From the NCBI GenBank assembly GCA_016790165.1, contig JAEUPL010000008.1:62001-126000 (forward strand): a stretch of 64,000 bases of DNA, written 5' to 3'. Origin of the DNA: Burkholderiales bacterium. GTDB taxonomy: Bacteria; Pseudomonadota; Gammaproteobacteria; Burkholderiales; Casimicrobiaceae. The notes beneath the pieces are model-generated. The model was not told the origin of the DNA and searched no databases. It saw only the letters and a list, made by a program, of their open reading frames with translations. Below, piece by piece: positions 18,680 to 50,499 of this stretch. A program made the translations under genes and the position numbers. The stretch's first letter is position 1; each line of letters begins with the position of its first letter.

Positions 18680-18797
18680 CAGCTTTTGTGGCGTAACGAC
18701 CAGCCAGCGGTCGTTACCGGCGAAAAAATTTAGAAGTCGACTCGTTGTAATAATCGCCCAGAACGACCGCCGGCTGGTCGTTGGCGGGGTAGAGCTG
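18680..18797. repeat. 118-bp inverted-repeat element, copy 1
   Basis: It runs from CAGCTTTTGTGGCG to TAGAGCTG and is centred exactly on GTC|GAC at 18738/18739. Each half contains an inner palindrome, AACGACC-N7-GGTCGTT. The halves match each other when one is reverse complemented (AACGACCAGCCAGCGGTCGT against AACGACCAGCCGGCGGTCGT). It fills the fabH-fabD gap and ends 41 nt before fabD. Confidence 0.85.
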
Positions 18798-18838
18798 AAA
18801 CACGAACCCGTGGCGATCACGGAGGACAGGACATCACT

Positions 18839-19774
18839 ATGAAACTCGCATTCGTATTTCCGGGGCAGGGCTCGCAGTCGGTGGGCATGATGGCAGGCTA
18901 CGCCGGTCTCGCGCAGATCGACGACACGATGGCAGCCGCCGACGCCGCGCTCGGCGCGCCGATCACTGCCCTGATTGCCAATGGCCCCGCGGACGACTTG
19001 AACGTCACGACCAACACGCAACCCGCGATGCTCGCGGCCGACGTTGCCGTGTGGAACGCCTGGGTCGCCGCCGGTGGCCCGAAGCCGGTCATGGTGGCCG
19101 GGCACAGTCTCGGCGAATATGCGGCGCTGGTGGCTGCCGGGGCGCTGGATTTCGCGTCCGCCATGAAACTGGTCAAAGCGCGCTCGCGGGCGATGCAGGA
19201 CGCCGTGCCCGCCGGCGTGGGCGGCATGGCGGCGGTGCTGGGGATCGACCCGGGCCCGCTCGCCGAGGTGTGCGACAAAGCGGCGCAGGGCGAAGTGGTC
19301 GCCTGCTGCAACCTCAACGCGCCCGGCCAGATCGTGATCGGCGGGCACAAAACGGCGGTCGAGCGGGCCATCGTGCTGGCGAAGGAAGCCGGTGCCAAGC
19401 GTGCGTTGCTACTGCCGATGAGCGTGCCGAGCCACTGCGAACTGATGCGGCCGGCCGCCGAGGCGCTCGCCAGCGCGCTCAACGCCGCGCAGTTGGCGCC
19501 ACCCCAAATCGCCGTGATTCACAACGCCACGGTGGACGTAGCCGGCGACGCCCCGGCGATTCGCGCGGTGCTGGCGGATCAGCTGTTCAAGCCGGTTCGC
19601 TGGATCGAAACCATCGAAAAGATGGCCGCGCAAGGTGTCACCCACATCATCGAATGCGGCCCCGGCAAAGTGCTCGCGGGCATGGTCAAGCGCATCGCCC
19701 CTGACGTCAAATGCCTGAGCCTGGCGGACAAGGCGAGTGTTGAGGCGGCGTTGGCGGAGTTGCAAAGTGTTTAG
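18839..19774 (+). CDS. fabD: Malonyl-CoA:ACP transacylase FabD
   Basis: 311 aa. It transfers malonyl from CoA to ACP. The nucleophile is Ser90 in GHSLGEY, with His199 (VPSHCELM) as partner and GQGSQ at 9-13. GGAGGACAGG precedes the ATG. In most betaproteobacteria fabG follows directly; here the next fab gene is 9.7 kb away. The stop overlaps the start of a lipoprotein gene. Confidence 0.96.
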   Translation: MKLAFVFPGQGSQSVGMMAGYAGLAQIDDTMAAADAALGAPITALIANGPADDLNVTTNTQPAMLAADVAVWNAWVAAGGPKPVMVAGHSLGEYAALVAAGALDFASAMKLVKARSRAMQDAVPAGVGGMAAVLGIDPGPLAEVCDKAAQGEVVACCNLNAPGQIVIGGHKTAVERAIVLAKEAGAKRALLLPMSVPSHCELMRPAAEALASALNAAQLAPPQIAVIHNATVDVAGDAPAIRAVLADQLFKPVRWIETIEKMAAQGVTHIIECGPGKVLAGMVKRIAPDVKCLSLADKASVEAALAELQSV

Positions 19775-20960
19775 TCGGAAACGCATCCCGCCGTCGGTGT
19801 TGATGATGATCCTCGCGGTGATGCTTTCGGCATGCGCCAGCGGGACGCGCAGCGATGGCGTTGCGACGGCCCGCGCGCCATCGCCTCAGCGCGTGAAGAT
19901 CGGCGTGGGTGCGCCGACGTCCGGCCAGATCGCCGAGCTCGGCGCGGGCATCGTGAACGGCGCGCGTATGGCCATCGACGAGGCCAACGCCGATGGCATA
20001 AAACTCGACGGCGCCGACGTCGTGTTTGAGCTGGTCGTCGAAGATGATCGCGCCGACCCCCGGACTGGCCCGGACGCAGCGCGCCGCCTCATCGAACGAG
20101 GCGTTGTCGCCGTGGTGGGGCACCTCAATTCGGGAATTTCGATTCCAGCATCAGCGCTGTATGACCGCGCGCGCATTCCCATGGTGACGCCGGCATCGTC
20201 CAATCCTCGACTTACGCAGCAAGGCCTCTCCAGCGTTTTCCGGATCGTCGGGCATGACGGCACGCAGGGCGAAGGTATCGCGGAATTCATTGCCCTCGGA
20301 TTGAAGCGCACGTCGTTCGCCGTTGTTGAGGACGGAACAACCTATGGAAGGGTGGTGTGCGAACCCGTCGTGGACTCGGCCAAACGCCGCTACGCGCTGT
20401 CACCGCGTTTGACGACGACTTATTCTGCCCTTGAAACGTCGCCGAAGTCCGTTGCTGATCGCATCGTGCAATCTGGAGCTGACGCAGTTGTTTACTGCGG
20501 GATGGGCGACGACGCGGTTCATCTGTTTGCTGCATTGCGGGCTCAGGGGAGCAAGGCAGTCTTTATCGGCTCTGACGGCCTGATGTCGACGGAAGTCGTA
20601 AGCGCGATGCGGGAGCTTGGTGAGGTGTATGCATCGAGCTCGGATCCGGTTTGGGATCGAAGCGACGCGGCGCAGGACTTTGAGCAGCGCTACCGCCGGC
20701 GCTTTGGCTTGGATGTCAGTGCCTATTCAGCGACGAGCTATGACGCCACACGCGTGCTCATCGCGGCGATGCGGGCAGGCAACAGCACAAATTCTGCCGG
20801 TCTTGCGGACAAAATTCATTCCATTGCATTCAAGGGCGTGACGGGGAGCATCGAGTTTTCGGCGTCGGGGGAACGCCTAGCCACTCCAGTAACGCTGCTC
20901 AAACTGACTGACGGCAAGTGGGCGCCAGCGTGGCGGAGCGGCGCCGCGCTCATGCGCTAG
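19767..20960 (+). CDS. Lipoprotein, branched-chain amino-acid type substrate-binding protein
   Basis: 397 aa from GTG 19767, overlapping the fabD stop by 8 nt; ATG 19803 is an alternative. A lipoprotein signal ends in LSAC (VMLSACASG), so the protein is probably membrane-anchored. The body is the type I periplasmic binding fold of LivJ/LivK and AmiC (KIGVGAPTSGQIAELGAGIVNGARMAIDEAN; VVGHLNSGISIPAS; TPASSNPRLT; YSATSYDATRVLIAAM). No permease or ATPase genes adjoin it. A sensory or scavenging role, or sharing of another transporter, is possible. It is the first gene of the block inserted between fabD and fabG. Confidence 0.85.
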   Translation: MFSRKRIPPSVLMMILAVMLSACASGTRSDGVATARAPSPQRVKIGVGAPTSGQIAELGAGIVNGARMAIDEANADGIKLDGADVVFELVVEDDRADPRTGPDAARRLIERGVVAVVGHLNSGISIPASALYDRARIPMVTPASSNPRLTQQGLSSVFRIVGHDGTQGEGIAEFIALGLKRTSFAVVEDGTTYGRVVCEPVVDSAKRRYALSPRLTTTYSALETSPKSVADRIVQSGADAVVYCGMGDDAVHLFAALRAQGSKAVFIGSDGLMSTEVVSAMRELGEVYASSSDPVWDRSDAAQDFEQRYRRRFGLDVSAYSATSYDATRVLIAAMRAGNSTNSAGLADKIHSIAFKGVTGSIEFSASGERLATPVTLLKLTDGKWAPAWRSGAALMR

Positions 20961-20978
20961 AGCACGTCCTGCCCGCGG

Positions 20979-21443
20979 CTAGCGCAGCGAACTCGCCCCC
21001 CACACGACCACGGCCATCAGCAACGCCGCGAGTGCCAGCCGGTAGTTGCGGTTGCTCATGGTGAATCGCATGTCGCGTTGCGCGGGGTCGTCGAGGAAGG
21101 CGTTGATGGCCTTGACGTGGGTACGGATCGTGTCGCGATCGCCGTCGGACGAGGTGATCTTGCCGCCGTTGGCGAGGCGCAGCTCCAGGTAGTACTTCTC
21201 GTCCGTCGTGCCGTCGACCGTGTTGTAGATGGACTGTTCGCCGAGCGCGGCGCGGCGCAGCAGCGTGTCGTCGAGTTGATGCAGCTGGGTCGCGCCGCGC
21301 TTACTGCTTTCAAATGTGCACTCGAACTGGCTCGCGCTGCTGCGACGGCAATCCATGTGCACGGTTTCGGACAACCAGAGCGCGAGCGGGAACACGATCG
21401 CGGCGGCGGTTACGATGATCAACAGGCGGGGCAGCAGGGTCAT
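20979..21443 (-). CDS. Membrane protein of unknown function, 154 aa
   Basis: The ATG at 21443 has GGGAGA 4 nt upstream. There is one N-terminal membrane segment (LLPRLLIIVTAAAIVFPLAL) and one near the C-terminus (LALAALLMAVVVWGA). The roughly 100-residue part between them carries two cysteines (MDCRR, FECTF) and probably lies in the periplasm. I do not recognise the family. It is convergent with the lipoprotein gene and upstream of nothing obviously related. Confidence 0.65.
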   Translation of the reverse strand: MTLLPRLLIIVTAAAIVFPLALWLSETVHMDCRRSSASQFECTFESSKRGATQLHQLDDTLLRRAALGEQSIYNTVDGTTDEKYYLELRLANGGKITSSDGDRDTIRTHVKAINAFLDDPAQRDMRFTMSNRNYRLALAALLMAVVVWGASSLR

Positions 21444-21529
21444 GTCATCTCCCGGTGAGGGCGCGACGACCACGCCGCAAGGGCGCGGATGGGGGGTGAG
21501 CAAGCCCGCTCAGCGACGGCGACCGGCCA

Positions 21530-22387
21530 CTACGACGGGTGCGTTTGCAGGTGATCATAGAGTCGCGCGAGGTTGTCGGCCGGAGAAAACCAGCCGGGAC
21601 CACCGAAGTTGAAGTGCAGCCGTTCGACGGGTGTCGGGAAACGACCGCGCCGCGAGCACTCAAGCACCGTGGCCACGTCGAGCGACCCGACGACGGCGGC
21701 CGGCGTTGCCGCATCGGGCGGTCCGGCGAGTTGGTTGATGTCGATGAAGCGCTCCGCGCGTCTCGCATCGGTGAACAGAAAGCCTGACAAACGCCGCTCG
21801 TTGTCGTGGCGGGTCAGCAGCGTGTTGGCGGGCTGCGTGTGGAGGACGGCAAACCACGCCGGCAGCGCATAGGTCGCTCGCCACAGTCGATCCACGTTGC
21901 GGCGATCGCCGGGTTGTTGGTTGGGGTACGCGTCGGCGGCCATGGCATCAAAGTCAATGCGCTCGGCGTCGGTGATCGGGCGCGCGTCACGGGGTTCATC
22001 ACACAACGGCTGCGCGCGCTCGAGCAACGCCATGATGAATGCCAGCGGCGGGTCGGGGCCGGCGCAGTTGAACACCACGCCGACGTAGGAACGCTCGCGC
22101 AACGTGGCAAACAACGCACGACCATCCAGGCGGCGAAGGCTCACGTCGGCTGGCGCGATGTGTTCGTCGCGCAGAAACGCGTCGCGCGCCTCAGTCGACG
22201 TGAACACCGCTGCCAGCCGCCGCGCGCGCTCATCGTCGGGTGCGAGCATCGGTTCTCCGTCGCGCAGCACGAGCCAGTAGCCCTCGTGAGCCACGATGTG
22301 CCGCAGCAGCGATTCCTCAAAAAAGTCATCGGGTCGCCAGCGCAACTGGGCCAGCGCGCGTTCGACGCTGACGCGAGGGAGTTTCAT
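21530..22387 (-). CDS. Hypothetical protein with SseB-like region, 285 aa
   Basis: The start ATG at 22387 (MKLPRVSVERALAQL) overlaps the upstream stop by 4 nt (ATGA). Residues 35-85 (GYWLVLRDGEPMLAPDDERA, then VFTSTEARDAFL) recall the SseB/EspG-like domain. The C-terminal third contains a second similar phrase (LSGFLFTDARRAERFIDI). No signal peptide, so it is cytosolic. It is cotranscribed with the secreted protein upstream. Function unknown. Confidence 0.6.
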   Translation of the reverse strand: MKLPRVSVERALAQLRWRPDDFFEESLLRHIVAHEGYWLVLRDGEPMLAPDDERARRLAAVFTSTEARDAFLRDEHIAPADVSLRRLDGRALFATLRERSYVGVVFNCAGPDPPLAFIMALLERAQPLCDEPRDARPITDAERIDFDAMAADAYPNQQPGDRRNVDRLWRATYALPAWFAVLHTQPANTLLTRHDNERRLSGFLFTDARRAERFIDINQLAGPPDAATPAAVVGSLDVATVLECSRRGRFPTPVERLHFNFGGPGWFSPADNLARLYDHLQTHPS

Positions 22388-23319
22388 CGGTCGGCCGCCT
22401 TGGGTGATGCGGCGGTCAGGCAGCGCGCTGGCCGTGGTGAGTGCAGGGCGCGGCCGTCGTGCGACGGACCGGGCGTCCGCGCTTGCCAGTCGCAACGCTC
22501 GAACAGTGAATAGCCCCCGGTGACGTAGGGCGCCCAGTCGTCAGCGAATACCGGCGCGGCAAACGGGGGCACTAGCCCCACCGCGCGTGCCGCCTCGGTG
22601 CGCACCCAGCCAACCGCGGCCGCGGCGGTGGACTCGCGGCTCCTGGTGTAGATCATGCGGTAGCGCGCAACGCGGCCGTAGTAGGGGTGACCGAAGCGCA
22701 GCTCGATACTCGACGCGTCCGGATACTGCCGGTGGAGCGCCTGGAAGTGCCGCGCGAGCAACGCGGTTGCCGGGGCGGCGCCATCAAAACTGGCCGCGGT
22801 ACGCGCCACGTGATAGCCCTCACCTGCGCGATGTGACAGCGGGCCGGGCAACCACCCCAGGTCGGCTGTCACGCGCACGCGCCCTGGCTGCGTCGTCATG
22901 TCAAGCTGTGTGAGGGGATGCGCAAAGCGCTGCGCGACTCGCGCCTCGAGCGCGCGCAGGCCGGCGCCTTCGCCCAGCGCGAGCCGGTAGTAGGTGACGG
23001 CATTCTGCGCCGCTTTGTGCCGGGTCGCGGCGGACATCGGCGGCGAGAGGTCAAGGTAGCGCAATGCACGGTGCAGCACGTCATCAATGACCGCCTGCTC
23101 GGTCACGACGAACGCCGCCCGTCCTTCGGGCGACCACTTCGGGTCGCGCAGATGCTCGCGCAGCGCTTCGCGCAGACTGCTCAGGTCATCTGGCGTGGTC
23201 GGCGTCGCCGTCGCCGTCGCCACCGACATCGCGGCGACGGCGAGCGCGAGGCACACAGGCACGGCGATCCGCACATCGAATCGTTGGTAGCAGCTTTTTG
23301 CTCTGAACGGCAGCTGCAT
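22384..23319 (-). CDS. Exported protein of unknown function, about 311 aa
   Basis: The signal peptide IAVPVCLALAVAAMSVATATA is followed by a mature part rich in Arg/Ala, with YYRLALGEGAGLRALEARVAQRF and a Cys near the end. The ATG at 23319 lies inside the 118-bp inverted repeat, so the first nine codons come from that element. A GTG at 23274, outside it, would still give a complete signal peptide and may be the original start. The 3' end overlaps the SseB-like gene. No family recognised. Confidence 0.6.
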   Translation of the reverse strand: MQLPFRAKSCYQRFDVRIAVPVCLALAVAAMSVATATATPTTPDDLSSLREALREHLRDPKWSPEGRAAFVVTEQAVIDDVLHRALRYLDLSPPMSAATRHKAAQNAVTYYRLALGEGAGLRALEARVAQRFAHPLTQLDMTTQPGRVRVTADLGWLPGPLSHRAGEGYHVARTAASFDGAAPATALLARHFQALHRQYPDASSIELRFGHPYYGRVARYRMIYTRSRESTAAAAVGWVRTEAARAVGLVPPFAAPVFADDWAPYVTGGYSLFERCDWQARTPGPSHDGRALHSPRPARCLTAASPKAADR

Positions 23320-23408
23320 GGTTATTTCAGCCCCATTATCTGCAAAGTCGAGTTTACGAAAAAGAGCGATCAAACGACCGACGAGCTGTCACCAAAGCCA
23401 AAAAGCTG
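23291..23408. repeat. 118-bp inverted-repeat element, copy 3 (overlaps a gene start)
   Basis: It begins CAGCTTTTTGCTC, ends CCAAAAAGCTG, and the centre is GTC|GAG at 23349/23350. It has the same length and end sequences as the copies at 18680, 28559 and 50382. It lies between two minus-strand genes and covers the presumed start codon of the 311-aa exported protein. Confidence 0.8.
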
Positions 23409-23423
23409 TACCTCGCTGCGGCG

Positions 23424-23882
23424 CTATCCCTTGGTGGTGCCGACCTTGTTGCCCTTCATGTCGCGATGCGTCGTGGTGTTGCCATTGATGGTGGATTTAC
23501 CGACCTGCTTGCCGGAAGCATCAAAGTGTTTCACCGTGTTACCGCTCTGCACCGACTTCCCGGTGCTCTTGCCCGAGGCGTTGACGTGGCGGGTGGTGTT
23601 GCCCGACGTGGTCGACTTGCCAAGCGAGCGGCCCGTGGTCGCGGTGTGCCGCGTCACGTTACCGCTCCGCGTGGATTTTGAGACCTGCTTGCCTGAGCTC
23701 GAGTAGGTGCGACTCGATGAACTGCTTGACTTGCTCGAGCTTGCGCTGCTGGAGCTCGAGCTGCTGCGCGACGAGCTCCTGCTGGCGGCTTGTGCGAGGT
23801 CGGCGCCGATCAGCGCCAGCGCGGCGACGGCTGCGGTGGCGAGGGAGAGCAGGGCAGGACGGGACGAACTGACGAAAGGCAT
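23424..23882 (-). CDS. Exported Ser-rich protein with 20-residue repeats
   Basis: 152 aa from ATG 23882, with GAGGAG upstream. The signal peptide ends near AQAA. A Ser-rich linker (about 35-60) follows. Then come four and a half repeats of about 20 residues, of the form SGKxxGKSxxSGNTxxHxxA, each with conserved Gly-Lys, Asn-Thr and His. This MORN/antigen-like pattern resembles short cell-surface or periplasmic repeat proteins; no known family name can be given. The regular His and Lys spacing might bind anions or nucleic acid (speculation). Confidence 0.65.
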   Translation of the reverse strand: MPFVSSSRPALLSLATAAVAALALIGADLAQAASRSSSRSSSSSSSASSSKSSSSSSRTYSSSGKQVSKSTRSGNVTRHTATTGRSLGKSTTSGNTTRHVNASGKSTGKSVQSGNTVKHFDASGKQVGKSTINGNTTTHRDMKGNKVGTTKG

Positions 23883-23976
23883 GACGACTCCTCGATTTGG
23901 TTGGGTGCGGTTGAACGGTGCATTGTCGGCCGGTGAAGCCGACCTGTCCATCGCATTTGTGGCAGGGGCTACCGTG

Positions 23977-24426
23977 CTACTGAACCGGTTTGTGCTGGCG
24001 CTTGCCCGTCGCCTGGCCGCTGGCGACGTCGCGAGGCGACTGGACACGTCGCTCGTGCGTGGCGGTGTCGCCAGGGTTCGACGCCGCGCGCTTGACGCCC
24101 TGTTTGGGAGCAGCGTCAGATTTCAGGTTCCCGGTCTGCGTGGCACCGAACGAGTACGACTGGCTTTGCCGCGGACCGCTCGTACGCGCCGTCGACGCGG
24201 TGCTGGTTGGGCCGCCAACGGCTGTCGCCGTGCCGCGCGGTGTGGCCGTCGCACCGGCACCCGGCCCGCCCTTGAACCGTGAGTGCGGCGAAGCGCAGTA
24301 GAAGCTGCCGTTGTTGTATCGGCACACATCCGGGCTGACGCAGGCGGGACTGCAATCGGCGGCCGCGATGGTCGGCGAGCCGGCAATGACGAGCGCGGCG
24401 ATGACGAGAATGCGATGGACTTTCAT
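23977..24426 (-). CDS. Small exported Cys-containing protein, 149 aa
   Basis: ATG 24426 is preceded by GAAAGG. The signal peptide ends ...AAA before DCSPAC. The first 25 mature residues carry four cysteines (CSPACVSPDVCRYNNGSFYC), suggesting two disulfides. The remainder is a low-complexity Thr/Ala/Gly/Ser/Arg tail with no predicted fold. A cell-envelope location is likely; function unknown. Same strand as the Ser-rich repeat protein, about 95 nt upstream of it. Confidence 0.6.
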   Translation of the reverse strand: MKVHRILVIAALVIAGSPTIAAADCSPACVSPDVCRYNNGSFYCASPHSRFKGGPGAGATATPRGTATAVGGPTSTASTARTSGPRQSQSYSFGATQTGNLKSDAAPKQGVKRAASNPGDTATHERRVQSPRDVASGQATGKRQHKPVQ

Positions 24427-24779
24427 GTTCGAACCTTTCAGGATGTCGCAACGGTTAAAGCGGGCGCCGATGACGTCGGCAACGTGCTCAACCGGGTTTA
24501 CGTGAACCGACGAGCGGTTCAGACATTGGCAATGGTTTGTTACAAACGCGATGCAGGCGCGCGACAGCACGGTGAGTTGCGGCGAAAAGGCCGCCCTCCG
24601 CATAATGAGCGAAAAGCGAAAGCAGACGGCCTCATGTGCGTTACGGCAAACACCCGCGACGCCGGACACGCTGTCGCGCTTTCGGGTGCGCTCGCGTCTC
24701 TTCACGCGGAACGACACCGACGTGCCAGCCAGCGGTCACGACGTGTTGGCCCGCCCTGGCTGAGTGAGGATCAAGCGAC
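24427..24779. other. Intergenic region, no gene recognised
   Basis: A divergent gap between the Cys-containing exported protein and the kinase gene. No ORF with coding character, RNA gene or clear promoter was found. It includes the short match CCAGCCAGCGGTC to the 118-bp element core, without its ends. Confidence 0.5.
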
Positions 24780-27700
24780 GTGGAACTGACGCTGCAATCG
24801 ATGAAAACGCTGTCCGAGCTGATGGACCGCGCGCTGGAGCTCGACGGTGCCGAGCGCACGCGGTGGTTACATGAACTCGCCACCGGACCGCACGCCGCGC
24901 TGCATCCCGTCATCGCCGACCTGCTGGCGCGTGGTGTCGACATGCGGACCGCCTTCATGCAGCGACCGTCGCTGTCGTTGCCGGCGAGTGCCGCTGCGGC
25001 GCCCTCCCCCCTCGCCGAAGGCTCGCGAGTTGGTCCGTACGTGCTCAAGCGGGAACTGGGGCGGGGCGGCATGGGCGCCGTCTGGCTCGCCGCGAGAGAC
25101 GACGGCGTGTTGACGCGCGAGGTGGCGCTGAAGCTGCCCGCGCTCCTGGTGAGCGAGGCGCTGGGGCAGCGATTCGACCGCGAACGCGACATCCTGGCCG
25201 GTCTGGTGCATCCACACATCGCCCGGCTCTACGATGCGGGCGTCAGTGCCGAGGGGCGTCCGTACCTCGCGCTGGAGTACGTTGCAGGTGCTGCCATCAC
25301 CGCGTACGCCGATGCCACGCGGCTGGATGTCCGGCAACGCCTCGCGCTCTTCCAGCAAGTGGCTGCCGCGGTGCAGTACGCCCACGCCCGCCTCGTGGTG
25401 CACCGGGACCTGAAGCCCGCCAATATCCTCGTGAGCGCGGATGGGCAAGTCCATTTGCTCGACTTCGGTATCGCCAAACTGCTCGACGACCCCGGCGAAC
25501 GTGCCGCCGAGACCGAACTCACGATGCTCGCGGGCCGCGCGTTGACGCTTGATTTCGCGAGCCCGGAGCAGGTTGCTGGCGAGCCGATCGGTACCGCCAG
25601 TGATGTGTACGCGCTGGGCGTCGTGTTGTACCTGCTCCTCTGCGGCAGCAAACCGCATCGCCCGACGCGTGACACCCGCGCCGCGCTCGAAGAGGCCATC
25701 CTGACCCTGGACGCGCCGCGCATGAGCGAGGTGGCCGCGCAGGCTGACTCCCCGACCCTGAGTGCGCGCAGCACATCGGCGCGCGTGCTGGCGCGCACGC
25801 TGGCGGGCGACCTCGACACCATCGTTGGCAAGTGCCTCAAGAAGTCGCCGGATGACCGCTACGGTACCGTCGCGGAACTGTCCGCCGACATCCAGCGTTA
25901 CCTTGAGGGCCAGCCGGTGAGTGCTCGACCCGATTCGTTCGGCTACCGTGCCAGCAAGTTTGTCCTGCGCAACCGTGGGGCGGTCGCGGCGGGCGGCACC
26001 ATCGCCGCAGCCATTCTGATCGGTTTCGCCGTGGCGCTTTGGCAAACCCAGGTTGCTCGACGCGAAGCGGCGCGTGCCGATGCAGCGGCGCAGATCGCCC
26101 GGGTCGAGAAGGAGCGCGCCGATGCGCAAGCGCTCGCCGCGACAACGCAGCGCGAACGCGCCGACCGCGAGGCAACGCTGGCGCGCGACGCCGCACAGCG
26201 CGCTGATCAGCAGGCCAGTGCCGCAGCACGCGAGGCGGTGCGGGCGGATCGCGAGTCCGTTTTCGCGCGACAGGCGGCGACGCGTGCCGACCACGAAGCG
26301 ACCGTCGCGCGACGTGAACGGGATCGCGGCAACGCCGTGCAGACCTTCCTGATGGATTTATTCGCGGCGAACAGCAATGACCAGAAGAACGCGATCGAGG
26401 TGCGCAATCTCACGGCCAAGCAGTTGCTTGATCGCGGCGCCGACCGGCTGGAGGCGCGCAACGAATTCAGCGACGACGTCAGCGCTGCCTTGTACCGCTT
26501 CTTCGGTGAGCTCTACGAGACGGTGTATGACTACGACCGCGCCGTTCAGATGCACGAACGCGGTGTCAAGACGGCGGCTGCGGCGCATGGCAAGCAATCA
26601 CGCGAATACGCTTTGGCGCTGATGGAATTGGCGTGGGTGCGGCGGGAAAGAAACGGCAACGATCTGGCGCTTGACCTGGTGATGGAGGCCAAGCAGGTGC
26701 TGGCTCGGGTGGCGCCGGGGACCGACGCCTATGCCCAGGCGCTGTATTTCGAAGCAGACTTCGTGCTGTTCAAGGAGCCGCGCCGGGCGGCAGACACAGC
26801 GACCGAGGCGGTGCGCATCCTGCGCCGCTCCGGCGAGACCACACGCCGGCTCGCGTTCGCGCAACGCACGGTCGCCTTTGCCGAGCGCGCACTCGGAGAC
26901 TACGACCGCGCGATCGCGGCGTTTGAAAGCGCCGCGTCGATGTTTGCCACGCTCTATGGTCCGGATGGCAGGGAGGTCGGCTTCACCATGACCATCTTGG
27001 CGGAGTGCTACCGCCAGCAGCTCAAGTTGACCAAGGCGCATGAGCTGGCGACAACAAGTGTCGCCATCATGCGCCCCTATCGCGGTGACCAGATCGATCG
27101 TGAGGTCTCCGGTCAACGCGTGCTGCGCCTGCGCGCCGATCTCGGTGAGACGCACGCTGCGATGGCAGCGGCGGAGGCGGTGGCCGCACGCATCACCGGC
27201 AGTGACGTCGCCGCGACCCGCGCGCGCACCAGCCTTGCTGTGTTGATGGCCGAGATTGCGTCTGCGCAAGGCGACAACGCGCGCGCCGAATCGCTGGCGC
27301 AGCCGCAGCTCGCAACACTGGCCAGCTCGCCGCCACTAACCCGCGCTGCAGTGCTGCTGCGCGTGGCGCGACTTGCGTTGCAACGTGGCGCGGTGGAGGA
27401 GGCCCGGCAGCGGCTTGGCGAGATCGATGACCTTCGTCGCAACAGCGGCTTTCCGTTCGAGTATGTGTTTGCCCAGGCCATCCTCGTCGCGGAGATTGCG
27501 GCCGCGTCAGGCCAGGCGGAGGCGGCGGAGGCGAGCTATCGTGGTTTCGAATCACAGTACGCCACAGCGCCAATCGCATCGGCCATTCGTTTCGGTCTGG
27601 ACATGAGCAAGGTGCGGGCAGCCGCTGCGCTGAAGGCCTGGCCGCGTGTGGTGACACTGGCGCAACCGTGGTTGCAACGCGCCAGCGCCGGTGAGGTGGA

Positions 27701-27869
27701 AATTCCGCAGTCGGCGCGGGGTGAATTGCTGCTGCGTGCCGGCGAAGCGGGGCGGCAGATCGGGCACCCGCAAGCCAGCGCGTGGCTGCGCGATGCGGAG
27801 GCGGTTTTCCAGCGCACCGACGTGGCAAGCAGTCGCCGCTGGCAAGCGGTGCGCTCGCTGCTTCCCTGA
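24780..27869 (+). CDS. Transmembrane Ser/Thr protein kinase with coiled coil and TPR-like C-terminus
   Basis: 1,029 aa from a GTG start (ATG 24801 is possible). The kinase domain is about 86-378: GRGGMG at 94-99, Lys118, HRDLKPAN at 208-215, DFG at 228-230, SPEQ at 261. All catalytic residues are present. One membrane segment (401-421) is followed by about 100 residues of Ala/Arg/Glu heptads (425-525), then helical TPR-like repeats to the end. The topology puts the kinase inside and the repeats outside. Such kinases are commonly paired with the ECF sigma family that follows 48 nt downstream, so it probably controls or senses for that sigma factor. Confidence 0.9.
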   Translation: MELTLQSMKTLSELMDRALELDGAERTRWLHELATGPHAALHPVIADLLARGVDMRTAFMQRPSLSLPASAAAAPSPLAEGSRVGPYVLKRELGRGGMGAVWLAARDDGVLTREVALKLPALLVSEALGQRFDRERDILAGLVHPHIARLYDAGVSAEGRPYLALEYVAGAAITAYADATRLDVRQRLALFQQVAAAVQYAHARLVVHRDLKPANILVSADGQVHLLDFGIAKLLDDPGERAAETELTMLAGRALTLDFASPEQVAGEPIGTASDVYALGVVLYLLLCGSKPHRPTRDTRAALEEAILTLDAPRMSEVAAQADSPTLSARSTSARVLARTLAGDLDTIVGKCLKKSPDDRYGTVAELSADIQRYLEGQPVSARPDSFGYRASKFVLRNRGAVAAGGTIAAAILIGFAVALWQTQVARREAARADAAAQIARVEKERADAQALAATTQRERADREATLARDAAQRADQQASAAAREAVRADRESVFARQAATRADHEATVARRERDRGNAVQTFLMDLFAANSNDQKNAIEVRNLTAKQLLDRGADRLEARNEFSDDVSAALYRFFGELYETVYDYDRAVQMHERGVKTAAAAHGKQSREYALALMELAWVRRERNGNDLALDLVMEAKQVLARVAPGTDAYAQALYFEADFVLFKEPRRAADTATEAVRILRRSGETTRRLAFAQRTVAFAERALGDYDRAIAAFESAASMFATLYGPDGREVGFTMTILAECYRQQLKLTKAHELATTSVAIMRPYRGDQIDREVSGQRVLRLRADLGETHAAMAAAEAVAARITGSDVAATRARTSLAVLMAEIASAQGDNARAESLAQPQLATLASSPPLTRAAVLLRVARLALQRGAVEEARQRLGEIDDLRRNSGFPFEYVFAQAILVAEIAAASGQAEAAEASYRGFESQYATAPIASAIRFGLDMSKVRAAAALKAWPRVVTLAQPWLQRASAGEVEIPQSARGELLLRAGEAGRQIGHPQASAWLRDAEAVFQRTDVASSRRWQAVRSLLP

Positions 27870-27917
27870 GTCTGGAGGCAGTACGACGCGCGCCGCTTTC
27901 GTCGTAGCATCACCATC

Positions 27918-28541
27918 ATGAACCAGTCTTCGAACGATGCCGGCGCTGCCGCGGTGGTGACCGCAAGCGACATCACCGCGCTGCTGGGGCGAGTGCAGGC
28001 GGGCGACCGTGACGCCGCCGACATCGCGTTTTCTGCGCTGTACCCGGAGCTGCGTCGCATCGCACACAGCCGCTTGCGGCATGGCGGCGACCGGGTTTCG
28101 CTCGACACCACAGCGCTGGTGCACGACAGCTACCTCCGCTTCGTCCAGGCGAAATCGCTCGATGTGAGCTGTCGCGGTCACTTCCTTGCCTACGCTTCGA
28201 AAGTGATGCGCTCGGTCATTGTCGACATGATCCGCGAAGTGAATGCCGAACGACGCGGCGGTGGGCGCTTCGATCTCACGCTGAACACGGCCATCGCCGA
28301 GGGCGCCGCTGCCGACACCGGCAGCGAAGCGCTGCACGTGCACGACGCGCTGGCCCGACTCGAAGCCGCCGATCCGCGCATGGCGACGGTCGTTGAAATG
28401 CGCTACTTCGGCGGATTCAGCGATCCGGAGATCGCCGACGCGCTCGGGGTGACGGTGCGCACGGTGGGGCGCGACTGGGAAAAGGCGCGGCTCTTTTTGC
28501 ATGCCATGCTGAGCGAAACGGGCCGCCCGCTCGCCGGGTGA
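27918..28541 (+). CDS. ECF sigma factor, kinase-associated (TIGR02999-type)
   Basis: 207 aa. Sigma region 2 is at 18-95 (LLGRVQAGDRDAADIAFSALYPELRRIA; ALVHDSYLRFVQ) and region 4 at 140-195 (MATVVEMRYFGGFSDPEIADALGVTVRTVGRDW, a helix-turn-helix). The phrases match the Acidobacteria-type ECF family, commonly encoded next to TPR-bearing Ser/Thr kinases. No anti-sigma gene is present, which suggests regulation by the upstream kinase. Targets are unknown; neighbouring exported proteins are candidates. Confidence 0.9.
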   Translation: MNQSSNDAGAAAVVTASDITALLGRVQAGDRDAADIAFSALYPELRRIAHSRLRHGGDRVSLDTTALVHDSYLRFVQAKSLDVSCRGHFLAYASKVMRSVIVDMIREVNAERRGGGRFDLTLNTAIAEGAAADTGSEALHVHDALARLEAADPRMATVVEMRYFGGFSDPEIADALGVTVRTVGRDWEKARLFLHAMLSETGRPLAG

Positions 28542-28558
28542 CGCGCCCACCCCGAAAA

Positions 28559-28676
28559 CAGCTTTGCGCCTGAGGCGACCAGCGGGTGGGCTTTGTGCGC
28601 TGTTTTGTCAAGAAGTCGATGGGTGAGTTTTTTCGTCTGAAACGATTGCACAACGGTCTTTCAGCCCAGAAAGCTG
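28559..28676. repeat. 118-bp inverted-repeat element, copy 4
   Basis: It begins CAGCTTTGCGCC, ends CCCAGAAAGCTG, and the centre is GTC|GAT at 28617/28618. The left half carries CGACCAGCGGGTGG and the right half AAACGATTGCACAACGGTCT. More diverged than copy 1, but the same length, ends and centre. It sits between the sigma-factor gene and the convergent acetyltransferase gene. Confidence 0.8.
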
Positions 28677-28693
28677 ATGCTGCCCGCTTGCCA

Positions 28694-29299
28694 TCAGACG
28701 TCTGCGCAAAGACGCAGCGCTGCCACATCGCCGGATACGATCACGGCCAGGTGTCGGGAAATTTTCTCGATCGGCCAGTCCCACCAGCGTATCTCCGCCA
28801 GCGACGCAACGGTTTCCGGCGCGAAACGCTGCTTGAGGACTTTCGCGGGATTGCCCCCCACCACGGCGTACGGCGGCACATCGCCGACCACCACGGATCG
28901 CGACGAGATGATCGCACCGTTGCCCACGGTCACGCCCGGCATGATCAGACTGTCGTAGCCGATCCACACGTCGTGACCGATGACGGTGTCGCCTTTGTAC
29001 GGAAGCTCGCCAGGGAGCGGCGTGACCTGCTCCCAGCCGTTGCCGAATATCTGGAATGGGTAGGTCGAAATGCCGGAAATCTTGTGATTGGCGCCGTTCA
29101 TGATGAACTTCACGCCACGGGCGATCGCGCAAAATTTTCCGATGACCAGCCGGTCGCCGATGAACGGGAAGTGGTAGAGCACATTGCGCTCAAAGTTCTC
29201 CGAGTCCTCGGGGTCGTCGTAGTACGTGTAGTCGCCAATCACGATGTTGGGATTGCTGACCGTGTTCTTGATGAAGCAAATCTGCGGGAAGCCCTTCAT
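28694..29299 (-). CDS. Vat/CatB-type xenobiotic O-acetyltransferase (hexapeptide repeat)
   Basis: 201 aa from ATG 29299, with AGGAGA upstream. Left-handed beta-helix family: YTYYDDPEDSENFERNVLYHF, GKFCAIARGVKFIMNGANH (catalytic His72), STYPFQIFGNGWE, GHDVWIGYDSLIMPGV, VVGGNPAKVLKQRF, WWDWPIEKI. The match to streptogramin A (Vat) and CatB chloramphenicol acetyltransferases is good over the full length. In environmental bacteria such genes are often chromosomal with unknown natural substrate. It is divergent from fabG, with 174 bp between starts. Confidence 0.88.
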   Translation of the reverse strand: MKGFPQICFIKNTVSNPNIVIGDYTYYDDPEDSENFERNVLYHFPFIGDRLVIGKFCAIARGVKFIMNGANHKISGISTYPFQIFGNGWEQVTPLPGELPYKGDTVIGHDVWIGYDSLIMPGVTVGNGAIISSRSVVVGDVPPYAVVGGNPAKVLKQRFAPETVASLAEIRWWDWPIEKISRHLAVIVSGDVAALRLCADV

Positions 29300-29473
29300 C
29301 GGGTGCTTCTCCTGCGGGCTGGGGCCGTTCAAGTGGACTCCTGTCGGTGTGGGTGATGCTGGGCGAGCGGGGCGCGCCGCGCTCATGGTCTAATTCCGGG
29401 ACATTGTGGTCGGACGTTCAACAGCGTAAGCGAGCCTGTGCCGACCCACCTATTCAACACCAAGGAAGCACAC

Positions 29474-30205
29474 ATGCAGGGGAAAGTTGCGTTAGTCACC
29501 GGCGCCACGCGCGGCATCGGCGCCGCGATTGCGCGGACGCTGGCCGAGGCGGGGGCCAAAGTGGTGGGCACTGCCACCACGGCCGACGGTGCGGCACGCA
29601 TCACGGCGGCGCTGGCCGGGCTTGGCGGACGCGGCATCGTGCTCAACGTGACTGACGCGGCGGCCATTGATGCCGCCCTCAAGGACATCGAGGCGAACGA
29701 AGGCGCGGTCGCGCTGCTGGTCAACAACGCCGGCATCACGCGCGACACGCTGCTCATGCGAATGAAGGACGAAGACTGGGACGCCGTGCTCGACACCAAT
29801 CTCAAGAGCGTATTCCGGCTGTCGCGCGCCGTGAGCCGCGCCATGATGAAGGCGCGCTTCGGACGCATCGTCAACATTGGCTCGGTCGTGGGCTCGATGG
29901 GCAATGCCGGGCAGGTGAACTACGCCGCCGCGAAGGCCGGGCTGATTGGCATGACCAAGTCGCTCGCGGCGGAACTGGGCTCGCGCGGCATCACCGTGAA
30001 TCTCGTCGCACCCGGCTTCATTGACACCGATATGACGCAAGCGCTGCCCGAAGCGCAGCGTACGAAACTCATCGAAATGATTCCGGCCGGGCGACTGGGC
30101 ACGCCTGACGACATCGCGCACGCGGTGCAATTTCTCTGCAGTGACCAGGCCGGTTATGTGACCGGCACGACCCTGCATGTCAATGGCGGGATGTACTTCT
30201 CGTAA
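29474..30205 (+). CDS. fabG: 3-oxoacyl-ACP reductase FabG
   Basis: 243 aa from ATG 29474, with AAGGA upstream. NADPH-dependent SDR of fatty-acid elongation: TGATRGIG at 9-16, NNAG at 84-87, catalytic Ser137, Tyr150 and Lys154 (NYAAAKAG), with the C-terminal GGMYFS. It resumes the fab operon after the inserted block and is followed by acpP after 138 nt, which contain a TAAAAT -10-like box near 30280. Confidence 0.96.
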   Translation: MQGKVALVTGATRGIGAAIARTLAEAGAKVVGTATTADGAARITAALAGLGGRGIVLNVTDAAAIDAALKDIEANEGAVALLVNNAGITRDTLLMRMKDEDWDAVLDTNLKSVFRLSRAVSRAMMKARFGRIVNIGSVVGSMGNAGQVNYAAAKAGLIGMTKSLAAELGSRGITVNLVAPGFIDTDMTQALPEAQRTKLIEMIPAGRLGTPDDIAHAVQFLCSDQAGYVTGTTLHVNGGMYFS

Positions 30206-32157: not shown

Positions 32158-32165
32158 TCTAAAAA

Positions 32166-34534: not shown

Positions 34535-34621
34535 CCAAGAAACGGGGTCACGCGCCAAGAAACGGGGTCACCAAGAAACGGGGTCACACCAAGAAACGGG
34601 GTCAGGTCTTGCAAAATAGCA
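34535..34621 (+). repeat. Four tandem CCAAGAAACGGGGTCA units leading into a REP motif
   Basis: CCAAGAAACGGGGTCA is repeated four times with 0-4 nt spacers (34535-34604). The last copy continues into GGGGTCAGGTCTTGCAAAAT and AGCA (34598-34621), a forward REP. The half-motif GGGGTCA is shared with the other REP loci but the CCAAGAAAC spacer is unique to this place. Confidence 0.75.
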
Positions 34622-34672
34622 CCCACCCCGATAGCATCAAGCCATGTCCCGACCGTTAAGACTTGAGTTTGT
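34622..34672 (+). pseudogene. RAYT 5' fragment A (leader and first nine codons)
   Basis: After the forward REP at 34598, the sequence matches the leader and start of the intact transposase gene at 35415-35465, including the ATG at 34644 and codons for MSRPLRLEF, with two base changes. It then breaks off into unrelated sequence (GTACAAAGTA). A truncated duplicate of the transposase 5' end. Confidence 0.75.
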
Positions 34673-34682
34673 ACAAAGTATT

Positions 34683-34780
34683 GGGGTCAGGTCTTGCAAT
34701 ATAGCAACGACACGCATAGACTCAAGCCATGTCCTGACCGTTGAGACTTGAGTTTGCCGGTGCACTGTATCAAGCAGGTA
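34683..34780 (+). pseudogene. REP plus RAYT 5' fragment B (leader and about 16 codons, early stop)
   Basis: A forward REP (34683-34706) is followed by a diverged copy of the transposase leader and start. ATG at 34729 is followed by TCC TGA, so the frame is closed at codon 3. Similarity continues through the GAGACTTGAGTTTGCCGGTG region, then stops. A second truncated 5' copy, older than fragment A. Confidence 0.75.
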
Positions 34781-34782
34781 AC

Positions 34783-34954
34783 AGGGTCGGGTCCCGCAAT
34801 ATCGCATTCAAACGTGGTGTGATGTTTGCAAAGTTCATCTTGATGCGTGCTATTTTGCAAGACCTGACCCCGTTGCGTTCTGACCCCGTTGCGTTCCCCG
34901 TGTTTTGCAAGACCTGACCCCGTTGCGTTCCCCGTGACCCCGTTGCGTTCCCCG
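34783..34954. repeat. Degenerate forward REP, two reverse REPs, and tandem TGACCCCGTTGCGTTC
   Basis: A degenerate forward REP at 34783-34806, reverse REPs at 34848-34871 and about 34900-34921. TGACCCCGTTGCGTTC occurs four times (from 34866, 34881, 34916 and 34937), the last ending at the start codon of the exported protein at 34955. Apart from REP material and the two transposase fragments, 34410-34954 contains no gene. Confidence 0.75.
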
Positions 34955-35338
34955 ATGAAAGTGCTTCTGCTGTTGCTGCAATCGTTGTTACTGTTGTCCA
35001 GCGCATTTGCGGCTGGTGAGCGCGAGGGTTTCGTTGCCGCGCTCGCCAACGAATTTCGTGTATCTGATCGTCGACTGCCTGCCGGTCGATATTCGTTTGA
35101 AATTTTTTCCTTTGTCGATTGCAAAATCATCGCTACAAATATCACTGATCCTACGATCAGCGTTGAAGTACCAGCTGCTTCCGTGATGTGTCGCGAACTA
35201 AAAGCAACTAGTGAAACTGCGACTCTTGTCGAAGTACACAGCGGAATACCGCGCGTGTCTGTAGTGTGGTTTGAGACCTATAACCACAATAGAAAGGTTA
35301 TCCGGACCGTCGCAGTGAGGCTGCAAGGATCGAAATGA
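34955..35338 (+). CDS. Small exported protein (127 aa), REP-bracketed cargo
   Basis: Clear signal peptide MKVLLLLLQSLLLLSSAFA, cleaved before AGERE. The mature part is about 108 aa, predicted beta-rich with two cysteines (FVDCKII, SVMCREL), which could form a disulfide. AT-richer than flanking DNA. The start codon directly follows the tandem REP-derived repeat. Downstream is the forward REP that precedes the transposase gene. No family recognised; probable cargo acquired with the REP island. Confidence 0.7.
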   Translation: MKVLLLLLQSLLLLSSAFAAGEREGFVAALANEFRVSDRRLPAGRYSFEIFSFVDCKIIATNITDPTISVEVPAASVMCRELKATSETATLVEVHSGIPRVSVVWFETYNHNRKVIRTVAVRLQGSK

Positions 35339-35366
35339 AATTGGTGCCTGGTCGATTTACGAAGAC

Positions 35367-35414
35367 TGCACAACGGGGTCACTGCACAACGGGGTCAGGT
35401 CTTGCAATATAGCA
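35367..35414 (+). repeat. Two tandem TGCACAACGGGGTCA units and a forward REP before the transposase
   Basis: TGCACAACGGGGTCA occurs at 35367-35381 and 35383-35397; the second copy runs into the REP GGGGTCAGGTCTTGCAATAT and AGCA (35391-35414). The REP lies 22 nt before the transposase ATG. Confidence 0.8.
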
Positions 35415-35436
35415 CCCACCCCGATAGCATCAAGCC

Positions 35437-36276
35437 ATGTCCCGACCACTAAGACTTGAGTTTGCCGGTGCGATCTATCACGTGACGTCGCGTGGCGATC
35501 GGCGTGAGGACATTTATCACGACGACGACGATCGAAAGTTGTGGCTGGACACGCTGGCGCAGTGTTGCGAGCGTTTCAACTGGGCAATTCATGCATGGTG
35601 CCAGATGTCGAATCACTACCATTTGGTGATCGAGACGGCGGAGGGCAACCTGTCGGCCGGCATGCGCCAGCTGAACGGCGTGTACACGCAGGCGCACAAT
35701 CGTCGGCACCACCGCGTGGGTCACGTGTTTCAAGGGCGATACAAAGGCATACTGGTTGATCGCGACAGCTACCTGCTTGAGCTACTGCGCTATGTCGTGC
35801 TCAACCCCGTGCGTGCCCGCATGGTGAAACGTCCCGAGGACTGGCATTGGAGCTCCTATCACGCGATGATAGGCAAGGAGCCGTGCCCAAAGTGGCTCAA
35901 TTGCCACTGGTCGCTGAGCCAGTTCGGTTCGCAGCGAACACGGCAGATCGCGCGCTACGTCGAATTCGTGCAGCAAGGCATCGACGGGCCGAGTGTGTGG
36001 CGCGGGCTCAAAGGTCAGGTGTTTCTCGGTACCGACGCATTCGCAGAGGCGATGCAGCGACGGCTTGAGCAGACGGCGCAATCGGCCAGTGCGGAAATAC
36101 CGCGCCTTCAGCGCCGCGCGCTGGCCAAGTCGCTGACCTACTACCGCGATACGTTCGACGACAAAAAGCTCGGCATGGCTGCGGCGTATGCGACTGGTGA
36201 CTACACGCTGCAACAGGTCGCCGATGCGTTCGATGTGCACTACGCAACGGTCAGTCGCGCAGTCAGTGGGAAGTGA
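35437..36276 (+). CDS. REP-associated tyrosine transposase (RAYT, Y1 family)
   Basis: 279 aa. The Y1/HUH nuclease domain occupies about 1-140: YHVTSRGDRREDIYHDD, HUH pair His60/His62 in MSNHYHLVIET, GHVFQGRYKGILVD, and tyrosines 112 and 119 in SYLLELLRYVVLNPVRA, one of which is the nucleophile. A C-terminal helix-turn-helix (YTLQQVADAFDVHYATVSRAV) is intact. RAYTs cleave REP sequences in single-stranded DNA and are thought to spread them. The immediate upstream REP and leader are duplicated, in truncated form, twice within 0.8 kb. Confidence 0.93.
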   Translation: MSRPLRLEFAGAIYHVTSRGDRREDIYHDDDDRKLWLDTLAQCCERFNWAIHAWCQMSNHYHLVIETAEGNLSAGMRQLNGVYTQAHNRRHHRVGHVFQGRYKGILVDRDSYLLELLRYVVLNPVRARMVKRPEDWHWSSYHAMIGKEPCPKWLNCHWSLSQFGSQRTRQIARYVEFVQQGIDGPSVWRGLKGQVFLGTDAFAEAMQRRLEQTAQSASAEIPRLQRRALAKSLTYYRDTFDDKKLGMAAAYATGDYTLQQVADAFDVHYATVSRAVSGK

Positions 36277-43372: not shown

Positions 43373-43414
43373 GGCGCTCGCCGTTGGCCTCGCCGCAGCG
43401 TTGGGCGTAGCGTT

Positions 43415-45676: not shown

Positions 45677-45724
45677 GCGTGCGTGGGGAGCGGGATAAAA
45701 ACATCATCGGGTGGCTGGGCCAGG

Positions 45725-46171: not shown

Positions 46172-46315
46172 AAAGGCAAACGATAGCGGAAAGCGGTGTC
46201 AGGCGGCGTCGGCGATTGACTGTCCGCGCCCCGCGTCGCCAGCTTGAGTGGTCGCTCCAAACCGTAACCGACCGATGGTGCGGCGTGGCAACGGACGTAA
46301 ACTCGCTGTCCAAGA

Positions 46316-46384
46316 GGTCAGGTGACGACGTGCGCCACAGGCGCGTGATCGCTCAGTCACCCGAAGCGGGTGTCCGACCTGACC
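46316..46384 (+). promoter_or_regulatory. Long nested hairpin in the leader of the FadJ-like gene
   Basis: GGTCAGGT (46316-46323) pairs with ACCTGACC (46377-46384), enclosing GTGAC/GTCAC and a perfect GCGCC-ACA-GGCGC (46332-46344). It ends 8 nt before GGAGG. Could be an attenuator or operator; it could also be a repeat element. Confidence 0.45.
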
Positions 46385-46410
46385 GCAATTTCCTGGAGGC
46401 TCTTTCCCAA

Positions 46411-48504: not shown

Positions 48505-48521
48505 TTGCTGCGCAATCAGCA

Positions 48522-48611
48522 GGACGGAAGACGAAGGACGAATGACGAAGTAGGGTGATTGACGAGCCGGTTCGGCGCTGCTTTGCGTCAATCGTCATTC
48601 GTCTCTCCGCC
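48522..48611. repeat. Long inverted repeat of GACGAAGGACGAATGACG type upstream of the thiolase
   Basis: The left arm 48522-48547 shares the 19-mer AGACGAAGGACGAATGACG with the element before lysC. The right arm contains CGTCAATCGTCATTCGTCTC. GATTGACG/CGTCAATC extends the pairing. A separate hairpin, GCTGATTG-CTG-CGCAATCAGC, covers the end of the preceding gene at 48500. Confidence 0.7.
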
Positions 48612-48650
48612 TTGCCCGCCAAGCCGACAAAAGAATTCAGGAGAAATCAC

Positions 48651-49826: not shown

Positions 49827-49857
49827 GCCGGCCTTCGCCAGAGGAGGCGGAAAATCC

Positions 49858-50310
49858 ATGGCAGAACCCGCGCCGGTGACCGTGTCGGCTGACGAGTTTC
49901 TGGCGATGGGGCGCAAGGTTCTTGCCGATCAGCCGTTCAGCGTGCTGCTCGGCGCGGAGCTCAGTGCCCTGGCGCCGGGCCGCGTCACGCTTGAGCTGCC
50001 GCTGCGCGACGCACTGAAGCAGCAGCACGGTTTTGCCCACGGCGGTGTTGTGAGTTATCTCGCCGACAACGCGTTGACCTATGCGGGCGGCACAGCGATG
50101 CGCGTGCCGGTGGTCACGTCCGAGTTCAAGATCAATTACACACGGCCTGCCGTGGGTACGCGCCTCATCGCCCGCGCTGAGGCCATCGCGGTGGGGAGCT
50201 CGCAGGCCGTATGCCGTTGCGACGTCGTTGCTCTCACCGCTGATGGATCGGAGAAGCTGGTCGCAACGGCGCAGGGCACGGTTGCGAAGCTTGGGGAGAG
50301 CAAGGCGTGA
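49858..50310 (+). CDS. PaaI-type acyl-CoA thioesterase
   Basis: 150 aa hotdog-fold protein, with GAGGAGG 10 nt upstream. The motif QQHGFAHGGVVSYLADNALTYAGG carries the conserved HGG and catalytic Asp, and SEFKINYTRPAVGTRLIARA is the next strand. Probably releases CoA from dead-end or medium-chain intermediates. Lies 31 nt after the thiolase. Confidence 0.9.
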   Translation: MAEPAPVTVSADEFLAMGRKVLADQPFSVLLGAELSALAPGRVTLELPLRDALKQQHGFAHGGVVSYLADNALTYAGGTAMRVPVVTSEFKINYTRPAVGTRLIARAEAIAVGSSQAVCRCDVVALTADGSEKLVATAQGTVAKLGESKA

Positions 50311-50381
50311 CGCGATGTCGACCGCGCCGGTTGCGACCGGGTGCGTCACCCGGATCATGGCGCCCGCGGAGTGGCCAGAAA

Positions 50382-50499
50382 CAGCTTTTTGGCGCGAACG
50401 ACTTCCCAGTGGTCGTTTCAAGCCGATTTCTTTACGAGTCGACTTGGCGAAAATTGATTCGGTAACGACGGTGGAAGCGTCGCTGTAGGCAGAAAGCCA
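50382..50499. repeat. 118-bp inverted-repeat element, copy 2
   Basis: It begins CAGCTTTTTGGCGCG; the centre is GTC|GAC at 50440/50441; the right end reads AGAAAGCCA in place of AGAAAGCTG. AACGACTTCCCAGTGGTCGT is the left inner palindrome. It fills the gap up to ATG 50500 of the acyl-CoA dehydrogenase gene. Confidence 0.8.

Follow-up and report, generated by a model that had tools for sequence, protein, structure and literature searches.

Evenly spaced ~120-bp palindromic elements of one Burkholderiales genus as possible sites for a DNA-bending protein complex

Introduction

The described systems closest to the subject of this work, a family of ~120-bp palindromic elements seen as four copies in a 64,000-nucleotide stretch of a Burkholderiales genome (GenBank contig JAEUPL010000008.1, positions 62,001 to 126,000 of the forward strand; termed the window below), are the REPINs and the ERIC and YPAL repeats. 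REPINs are reported as dispersed doublets with a preferred spacing, a random distribution and common compensatory changes (PMC3116915), and ERIC and YPAL as repeats whose target sites are duplicated, ERIC having TA termini and 7-bp terminal repeats (PMC2229807). The present elements resemble ERIC (IRU) and YPAL in being intergenic palindromic repeats of ~120-170 bp (PMC2229807), unlike which they show no 3-9 bp duplication above expectation and carry internal modules at fixed helical distances. With REPINs and REP-BIMEs they share hundreds of dispersed intergenic inverted-repeat units with conserved ends, a drifting middle and a preferred length, in genomes that hold RAYT genes. Unlike REPINs, they are nearly free of compensatory changes, are over-dispersed and include no near-identical pair among the sampled copies of the source genome; moreover, separate GTAG palindromes stand at three inspected RAYT loci, and the present unit is a double-stranded DNA composite with an axis motif.

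Symmetric protein-binding sites offer a second comparison. The parS, matS, SlmA and Noc sites are short single sites, which like the present elements are dispersed and symmetric and thus represent a plausible functional class, whereas the element here is a ~120-bp composite whose inner part changes between lineages. Gyrase-binding BIMEs and strong gyrase sites likewise are of wrap length and lie in intergenic DNA, in contrast to which the present elements hold much stricter base-specific motifs. Among the records listed by literature searches on evenly spaced, conserved-spacing, immunity-spaced or 118-bp palindromes, none was recognised as the present family.

The elements have a defined modular architecture, nearly lack RNA-type covariation, come in quantised lengths, are evenly spaced along the chromosome and are in part retained at shared places. 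From these features we would infer one cognate protein, bending of the DNA and an organising role.

Family size and distribution

The source genome (3.76 Mb in 41 contigs, 92% complete) was searched with the pattern CAGCTTT-N49-GTCGA-N50-AAAGCTG at up to three mismatches, resulting in 189 forward and 186 reverse matches, while the pattern read backwards gave none on either strand. The sequence-only reading had taken the four window copies for a family under constraint of length and centre, and the 189 matches against zero in the control establish such a family genome-wide, with many sites beyond those four. A weight matrix for half-elements, built from type A copies (see below) of three genomes including the source genome, found 61 elements in 860 kb of fully scanned source-genome stretches and 28 in 380 kb of a relative, G005, extrapolating to ~270-330 elements per genome. 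Across the window the matrix identified exactly eight halves, those of the four elements, with scores of 29-60, every other position scoring 12 or less and one shuffled window giving none.

With two mismatches allowed, the pattern occurs throughout one Burkholderiales genus except in G002 and G016, being present in 15 of 17 genomes. None of the 19 genomes sampled from sister genera has it, and 24 genomes from elsewhere in the order gave one match, on a single strand, against one for the backwards control. Named carriers among the matches listed are metagenome-assembled genomes labelled Burkholderiales, Betaproteobacteria and Pseudomonadota, plus one contig labelled Deltaproteobacteria, and the exact pattern was not found in IMG/VR. 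Two elements lie on the Deltaproteobacteria-labelled contig (L110), which shares a 99% identical gene with JAGNQL and is probably misbinned. Coordinates and sequences equate G008 with JAGNQL, G012 with JAPUER and G001 with JANXUB.

Architecture of the elements

Read from the outside to the axis, the type A consensus (source genome, JAGNQL and JAKPSO) begins with WW-CAGCTTTT, followed by the inner dyad AACGAC...GTCGTT (positions 16-36), then an A/T tract (45-48) that can be AAA or TTT, and finally the axis (A/T)(A/T)GTCGAC; the other half is the mirror image. Type B elements (G005, JAPUER and JANXNO) share the ends, A/T tract, axis and frame of type A, and their dyad is GCCC...GGGC. Positions 46-47 are almost never G or C across the family. 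Just outside, at positions -1 and -2, A or T makes up 95-96% of the bases in type A arms and 78-88% in type B arms; the element thus reaches ~2 bp beyond the 118 bp first assigned to it on either side. In the window the copies and the modules of copy 1 are as follows.

18680-18797, no strand: copy 1, type A, in the fabH-fabD gap; half scores 56.0 and 42.9; the site is occupied in several relatives
18678-18687, plus strand: left outer end of copy 1, an A/T pair followed by CAGCTTTT (element positions -2 to 8), the family end motif by base frequencies
18695-18715, plus strand: left inner dyad of copy 1, AACGACC...GGTCGTT (positions 16-36)
18724-18727, no strand: left A/T tract of copy 1 (positions 45-48)
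18736-18741, no strand: axis motif GTCGAC of copy 1, the symmetry axis (positions 57-62)
18762-18782, minus strand: right inner dyad of copy 1 (positions 83-103)
18790-18799, minus strand: right outer end of copy 1 plus the outside A/T pair
23291-23408, no strand: copy 2, 118 bp, flanked by two minus-strand genes; half scores 54.4 and 50.0
28559-28676, no strand: copy 3, 118 bp, in a convergent gene pair, with 17 bp to the called stop codon on either side; half scores 39.1 and 30.4
50382-50499, no strand: copy 4, 118 bp, flanked by two plus-strand genes and with a degenerate right end, AGCCA; half scores 59.8 and 29.2

All four copies are exactly 118 bp and start with CAGCTTT, three end in AGCTG and the fourth in AGCCA, and the centres read GTC followed by GAC, GAG, GAT and GAC; on re-reading, the coordinates, length, starts, ends and centres given in the sequence-only reading were exact throughout. 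A counterpart of copy 4 adjoins the same genes at L082. A gene directly adjoining copy 3 (27918-28541, plus strand) encodes an ECF-type sigma factor (PF07638), and a very long open frame of 2390 aa occupies 5125-12297 on the minus strand of the window.

Arms were sorted into types using matrices trained on the same genomes that were sorted, which assigned the 122 source-genome arms as 105 AA, 4 hybrid, 1 BB and 12 undecided, those of G005 as BB in 77 of 82, and those of JAPUER as BB in 41 of 56, with 5 hybrids and 10 undecided. Visual inspection shows the lone BB call of the source genome (L173) to be an A-like dyad that is one base out of place. In a FabD tree with moderate support, the source genome (type A) groups with G005 and G012 (type B), apart from G008 and G003 (type A). 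On the thin basis of this one-gene tree, the simplest reading would be that the inner half-sites switched more than once or with a reversal, and polyphyly of type A is not firmly claimed. Along the type A arm, A/T content is most strongly periodic at 9.5-10 bp (score 0.23, among periods of 8-14.5 tried, the scores carrying no significance values).

To assess completeness, the weaker arm was examined in the 89 elements that the half-matrix, with ends unselected, detects in 1.24 Mb: in 75 the dyad deviates from its usual distance by no more than 2 bp, and in one it is displaced by 10.

Quantised length

Variable-gap searches in five genomes allowed any length from 88 to 148 bp, and the counts that follow cover the matches listed. 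At least 264 places were found, 250 of them at 115-119 bp and 13 at 126-129 bp, the remaining one being a nested alternative end; no intermediate length was among those listed. The source genome contributed 48 elements of 118 bp, 5 of 117, 1 of 119 and 5 of 128, and in G001 43 of 73 measure 116 bp. The length of 118 bp originally given for the element is therefore the commonest in the source genome but one of several there, and G001 centres on 116; across relatives the length is kept within 1-3 bp, with an additional class longer by one turn. Neither of the outcomes named beforehand as refuting the family, a genome with these four sites alone or relatives that have lost the length, thus came about.

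Eleven of the 13 long copies carry exactly 10 extra bp in one arm with the distance from dyad to axis unchanged, which places the insert between the end and the dyad, while in the other two (L351 and L354) the insert could not be placed. Acceptance of a full helical turn together with the absence of intermediates among these matches is as expected for a protein complex assembled on one face of the helix. In the long arms (L342-L353) an A/T-rich block is often seen by eye ~13-17 bp from the end.

Pairing and folding

A folded RNA unit had been one of two identities first suggested for the element, together with a check for compensatory changes, which was carried out on 110 type A and 78 type B copies. 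The ratio of observed to expected Watson-Crick pairs was 1.009 (type A) and 1.002 (type B) for the inner dyads and 0.989 and 1.032, respectively, for the whole palindrome, so that compensatory change between facing positions is nearly absent. The strongest dependences link adjacent bases instead (33-34; 46-47-48), and their combination with the near absence of compensatory pairing points to protein-bound double-stranded DNA.

Column shuffling costs the copies 3-4 kcal/mol of folding energy, but swapping intact halves or parts among them costs 0-1.2 kcal/mol, leaving a residue of ~4.5 standard deviations for cuts inside type A dyads, 6 for the type A dyad alone, ~2 at two other type A cuts and at most 1.5 in type B. 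The positive column-shuffle signal for an RNA structure is thus mostly lost under controls that keep the dependence between neighbours, and an exchange of halves that costs little or no folding energy speaks against the proposed folded RNA. Among the window copies, copy 1 folds very well against shuffles (z of -7.2 and -8.7), copies 2 and 4 moderately (-1.9 to -3.4) and copy 3 no better than the shuffles. Rfam at gathering threshold, run on the window, gave no match at the elements; its hits there, four tRNAs and an int-alpA RNA (RF02996, 2818-2886, minus strand), lie elsewhere. Positions 18500-29500 contain 8 terminator-like sites, one of which falls in copy 2, against 8.5 in shuffles.

Mobility, retention and RAYT genes

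The other identity suggested at the outset, a MITE-like element, is not supported by the copies examined. Flank matches of 3-9 bp in 226 copies stay within ~1.6 standard deviations of the null, in agreement with the initial remark that no target duplication was seen, and those of 2 bp are in slight excess (0.416 vs 0.368, standard deviation 0.019). No pair among the 61 sampled source copies exceeds 69% identity, giving no sign of recent copying; the same ceiling holds for 41 G005 copies, and 68% for 28 JAPUER copies, while JAGNQL has one pair 87% identical. None of the 89 half-matrix elements has its midpoint inside a called gene.

Some sites are kept. The scan finds an element in the fabH-fabD gap in 6 of the 17 genus genomes, and diverged or off-length forms, mostly ending just before the fabD start, are visible by eye in at least four more (G012, G015, G004 and G011), with none by eye in G009 and G016 among the loci printed. 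Besides fabD, gene neighbours shared with one of the 61 sampled source copies were seen for 5 of 40 sampled copies in G005, 5 of 28 in JAPUER and 6 of 34 in JAGNQL. Seven same-type G005-JAPUER pairs beside the same genes have a spacer identity of 0.476 vs 0.417 expected (P 0.005), or 0.448 vs 0.397 (P 0.03) under a stricter spacer definition, and two closer pairs reach 0.81 and 0.87.

Of the 17 genus genomes, 15 contain RAYT (Y1_Tnp) genes; the two without are G009 and G016, with 1 and 0 pattern matches, and G002 has a Y1_Tnp match and no pattern match. From 44 such matches 22 loci were fetched, yielding 21 frames for comparison (one locus gave none), and 7 of 10 sampled genomes encode members of a related group of ~175-aa RAYTs whose best matches share 47-86% identity. 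Nine of the 22 loci have elements within 3.2 kb, where a rough estimate from density expects ~8, and at three loci (L282, L283 and L284) the gene is surrounded by its own GTAG-type palindromes, different in sequence at each. The RAYT gene of the window (NF047646, 35437-36276, plus strand) is preceded by GGGGTCAGGTCTTGCAA repeats in both orientations at 34598-35480 and has no 118-bp element within 3.2 kb. A cognate RAYT flanked by the same repeat, as characterises REPINs, was not found at the 22 of 44 loci examined. As a partner of the element RAYT co-occurs across genomes, but the local context gives it no support, and a RAYT-driven origin may still apply but is unsupported.

Gene context and chromosomal spacing

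With genes called by our own script, 88 of the 89 elements could be classified as 50 tandem, 21 convergent and 17 divergent, compared with 702, 153 and 152 among all 1007 adjacent gene pairs, a moderate enrichment of convergent pairs (21/88 vs 153/1007, Fisher p 0.028). In tandem pairs the element is nearer the upstream stop in 32 of 50 (p 0.065), with medians of 24.5 bp to the upstream stop and 108.5 bp to the downstream start. A strong 3-prime preference, suggested by 24 convergent contexts among 60 classifiable elements of an end-selected source-genome set, was weakened by the 21 of 88 in the unselected one.

Elements follow each other about every 12-16 kb in intergenic DNA. Over 380 contiguous kb of G005 with 28 elements, the coefficient of variation of the intervals is 0.588 vs 0.924 for random intergenic gaps (P 0.0034), and 11 of 27 intervals measure 9-13 kb, a band picked post hoc. 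The direction of the effect was recorded before three source-genome stretches (860 kb, window included) were analysed, and these gave a pooled coefficient of 0.587 vs 0.915 (P 2e-4), with 2 intervals under 3 kb vs 10.2 expected and 16 of 9-13 kb vs 8.1 expected (P 0.005). All four stretches together (85 intervals) reached 0.583 vs 0.917, which none of 5000 randomisations matched. Taken singly, stretch C15 is even (0/5000) and so is C7 (P 0.013). The third, C18, has a 44-kb element-free gap at ~9138-53098 (L302-L304) that, with its lower G+C content (0.596) and low coding density (0.67), looks like an acquired island, and two further gaps near 40 kb of unremarkable coding density.

An apparent hole at 1.89-2.68 Mb of G005, which had suggested the depletion around the replication terminus expected of nucleoid-occlusion sites (Noc, SlmA), was due to the requirement for near-exact ends, since the half-matrix finds the 28 elements at 1.90-2.28 Mb, where GC skew stays positive; exact elements extend up to 4.24 Mb, the terminus not having been located. 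Half-elements lacking the other half occur near 2029199, 2151069 and 2247737 of G005:C1, and for the first two the absent half would fall in the next called gene.

Interpretation

The elements may be genus-specific, two-fold-symmetric DNA sites of ~120 bp for a dedicated bending or wrapping protein complex with a chromosome-organising role, a reading to which we give close to an even chance. A dedicated complex would assemble on each double-stranded site and bend or wrap the DNA, reading the modules in order: WW-CAGCTTTT, the inner dyad of two half-sites (16-36), the A/T tract by shape (45-48) and the axis GTCGAC. At least some sites would stay where they are as the DNA separating the modules drifts, and the role would most likely be to anchor loops, delimit supercoil domains or serve some related function of the nucleoid. 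Such a complex is favoured because of the symmetry, the fixed helical positions of the modules, the tolerance of one turn and the A/T tracts apparently read by shape, and also because of the neighbour dependence, the lineage-specific half-sites, the intergenic placement and the even tiling. Distinctly short of even is the chance of the fuller proposal of a previously undescribed system in which a dedicated protein wraps ~120-bp sites tiled every 12-16 kb and kept by selection, its specificity having switched between species with hundreds of half-sites following.

Several observations weigh against a dedicated complex. No binding protein turned up, no systematic search for a partner having been made. 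Conservation of the ends and centre is partly built into the search requirements; the second dyad was not found in 13 of the 89 elements and the second outer end scores poorly in 30, showing that not all copies are complete. In type B arms an A/T period of 8 scores higher (0.245) than one of 10 (0.196). Traces of pairing exist: of all registers tried, one shifted by two positions in type B gives the top ratio, 1.053; the type B facing pairs 32-87 (75 vs 71.2) and 34-85 (65 vs 58.2) slightly exceed expectation; and real type A dyads have a slight edge in folding energy (-7.98 vs -7.33 kcal/mol, standard deviation 0.11). Only a minority of sampled copies stands at shared places, the samples being incomplete on both sides, and 19 source-versus-relative pairs have a spacer identity of 0.349 against a background of 0.337, as if the spacers were saturated or the elements replaced there, re-insertion at the same place being possible. 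C18 alone is not significantly even (coefficient of variation 0.759, P 0.14), and even spacing could instead come from insertion immunity or loss of close pairs.

The main rival, which we consider somewhat unlikely, is an old non-autonomous element of REPIN or MITE type, spread by an ancestral transposase and now mostly quiet, in which target immunity or the loss of close pairs accounts for the spacing and only copies with ends and length intact were mobilised. Palindromes numbering in the hundreds, scattered between genes and conserved in their ends and length, do resemble REPINs, Y1_Tnp is present in 15 of 17 genus genomes with the two that lack it having 1 and 0 matches, the ~175-aa RAYT group occurs in 7 of the 10 genomes sampled, and JAGNQL has its 87% identical pair; set against these are the lack of near-identical pairs among sampled copies of the source genome, G005 (at most 69%) or JAPUER (at most 68%), target duplications of 3-9 bp at expectation (2 bp, 0.416 vs 0.368), the quantised length, the separate GTAG-type palindromes at three RAYT loci, the 9 of 22 transposase loci near elements where ~8 are expected, and G002, with Y1_Tnp and without the pattern. 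SBW25 REPIN doublets, moreover, are reported as random in placement and commonly compensated (PMC3116915).

A strong wrapping site for gyrase or another topoisomerase, absorbing supercoils in a BIME-like manner, would also suit a two-fold symmetric intergenic site of ~120 bp repeated near every 13 kb, with type A A/T tracts close to a 10-bp period and moderately enriched convergent contexts. We regard it as improbable, since the ends and dyads are far stricter base by base than the preference of gyrase, and a dyad that varies among related species does not suggest an essential enzyme as the binder. Still more improbable are operators of a large regulon whose protein regulates the adjacent genes; discrete half-sites of transcription-factor type, and element ends a few bp ahead of the fabD start codon in several species, are of the kind expected, but 21 of 88 elements lie between convergent genes, tandem ones sit closer to the upstream stop than to the downstream start, and even spacing would not be anticipated. 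A structured RNA, attenuator or bidirectional terminator formed by the palindrome we find hardly credible: the folding of copies 1, 2 and 4, the advantage over column shuffles, the type A dyad excess and the terminator-like site in copy 2 are offset by pairing ratios near 1, the loss of most of the energy gap once neighbours are kept, the folding of copy 3 no better than that of shuffles, the lack of Rfam matches at the elements and a number of terminator-like sites close to that of shuffles.

Significance

If sites for a dedicated complex are indeed what these elements are, hundreds of defined, evenly spaced and sequence-readable anchors would allow a direct test of the division of a chromosome into domains of ~10 kb, and a protein and a few hundred of its sites would be seen changing specificity together between sister species.

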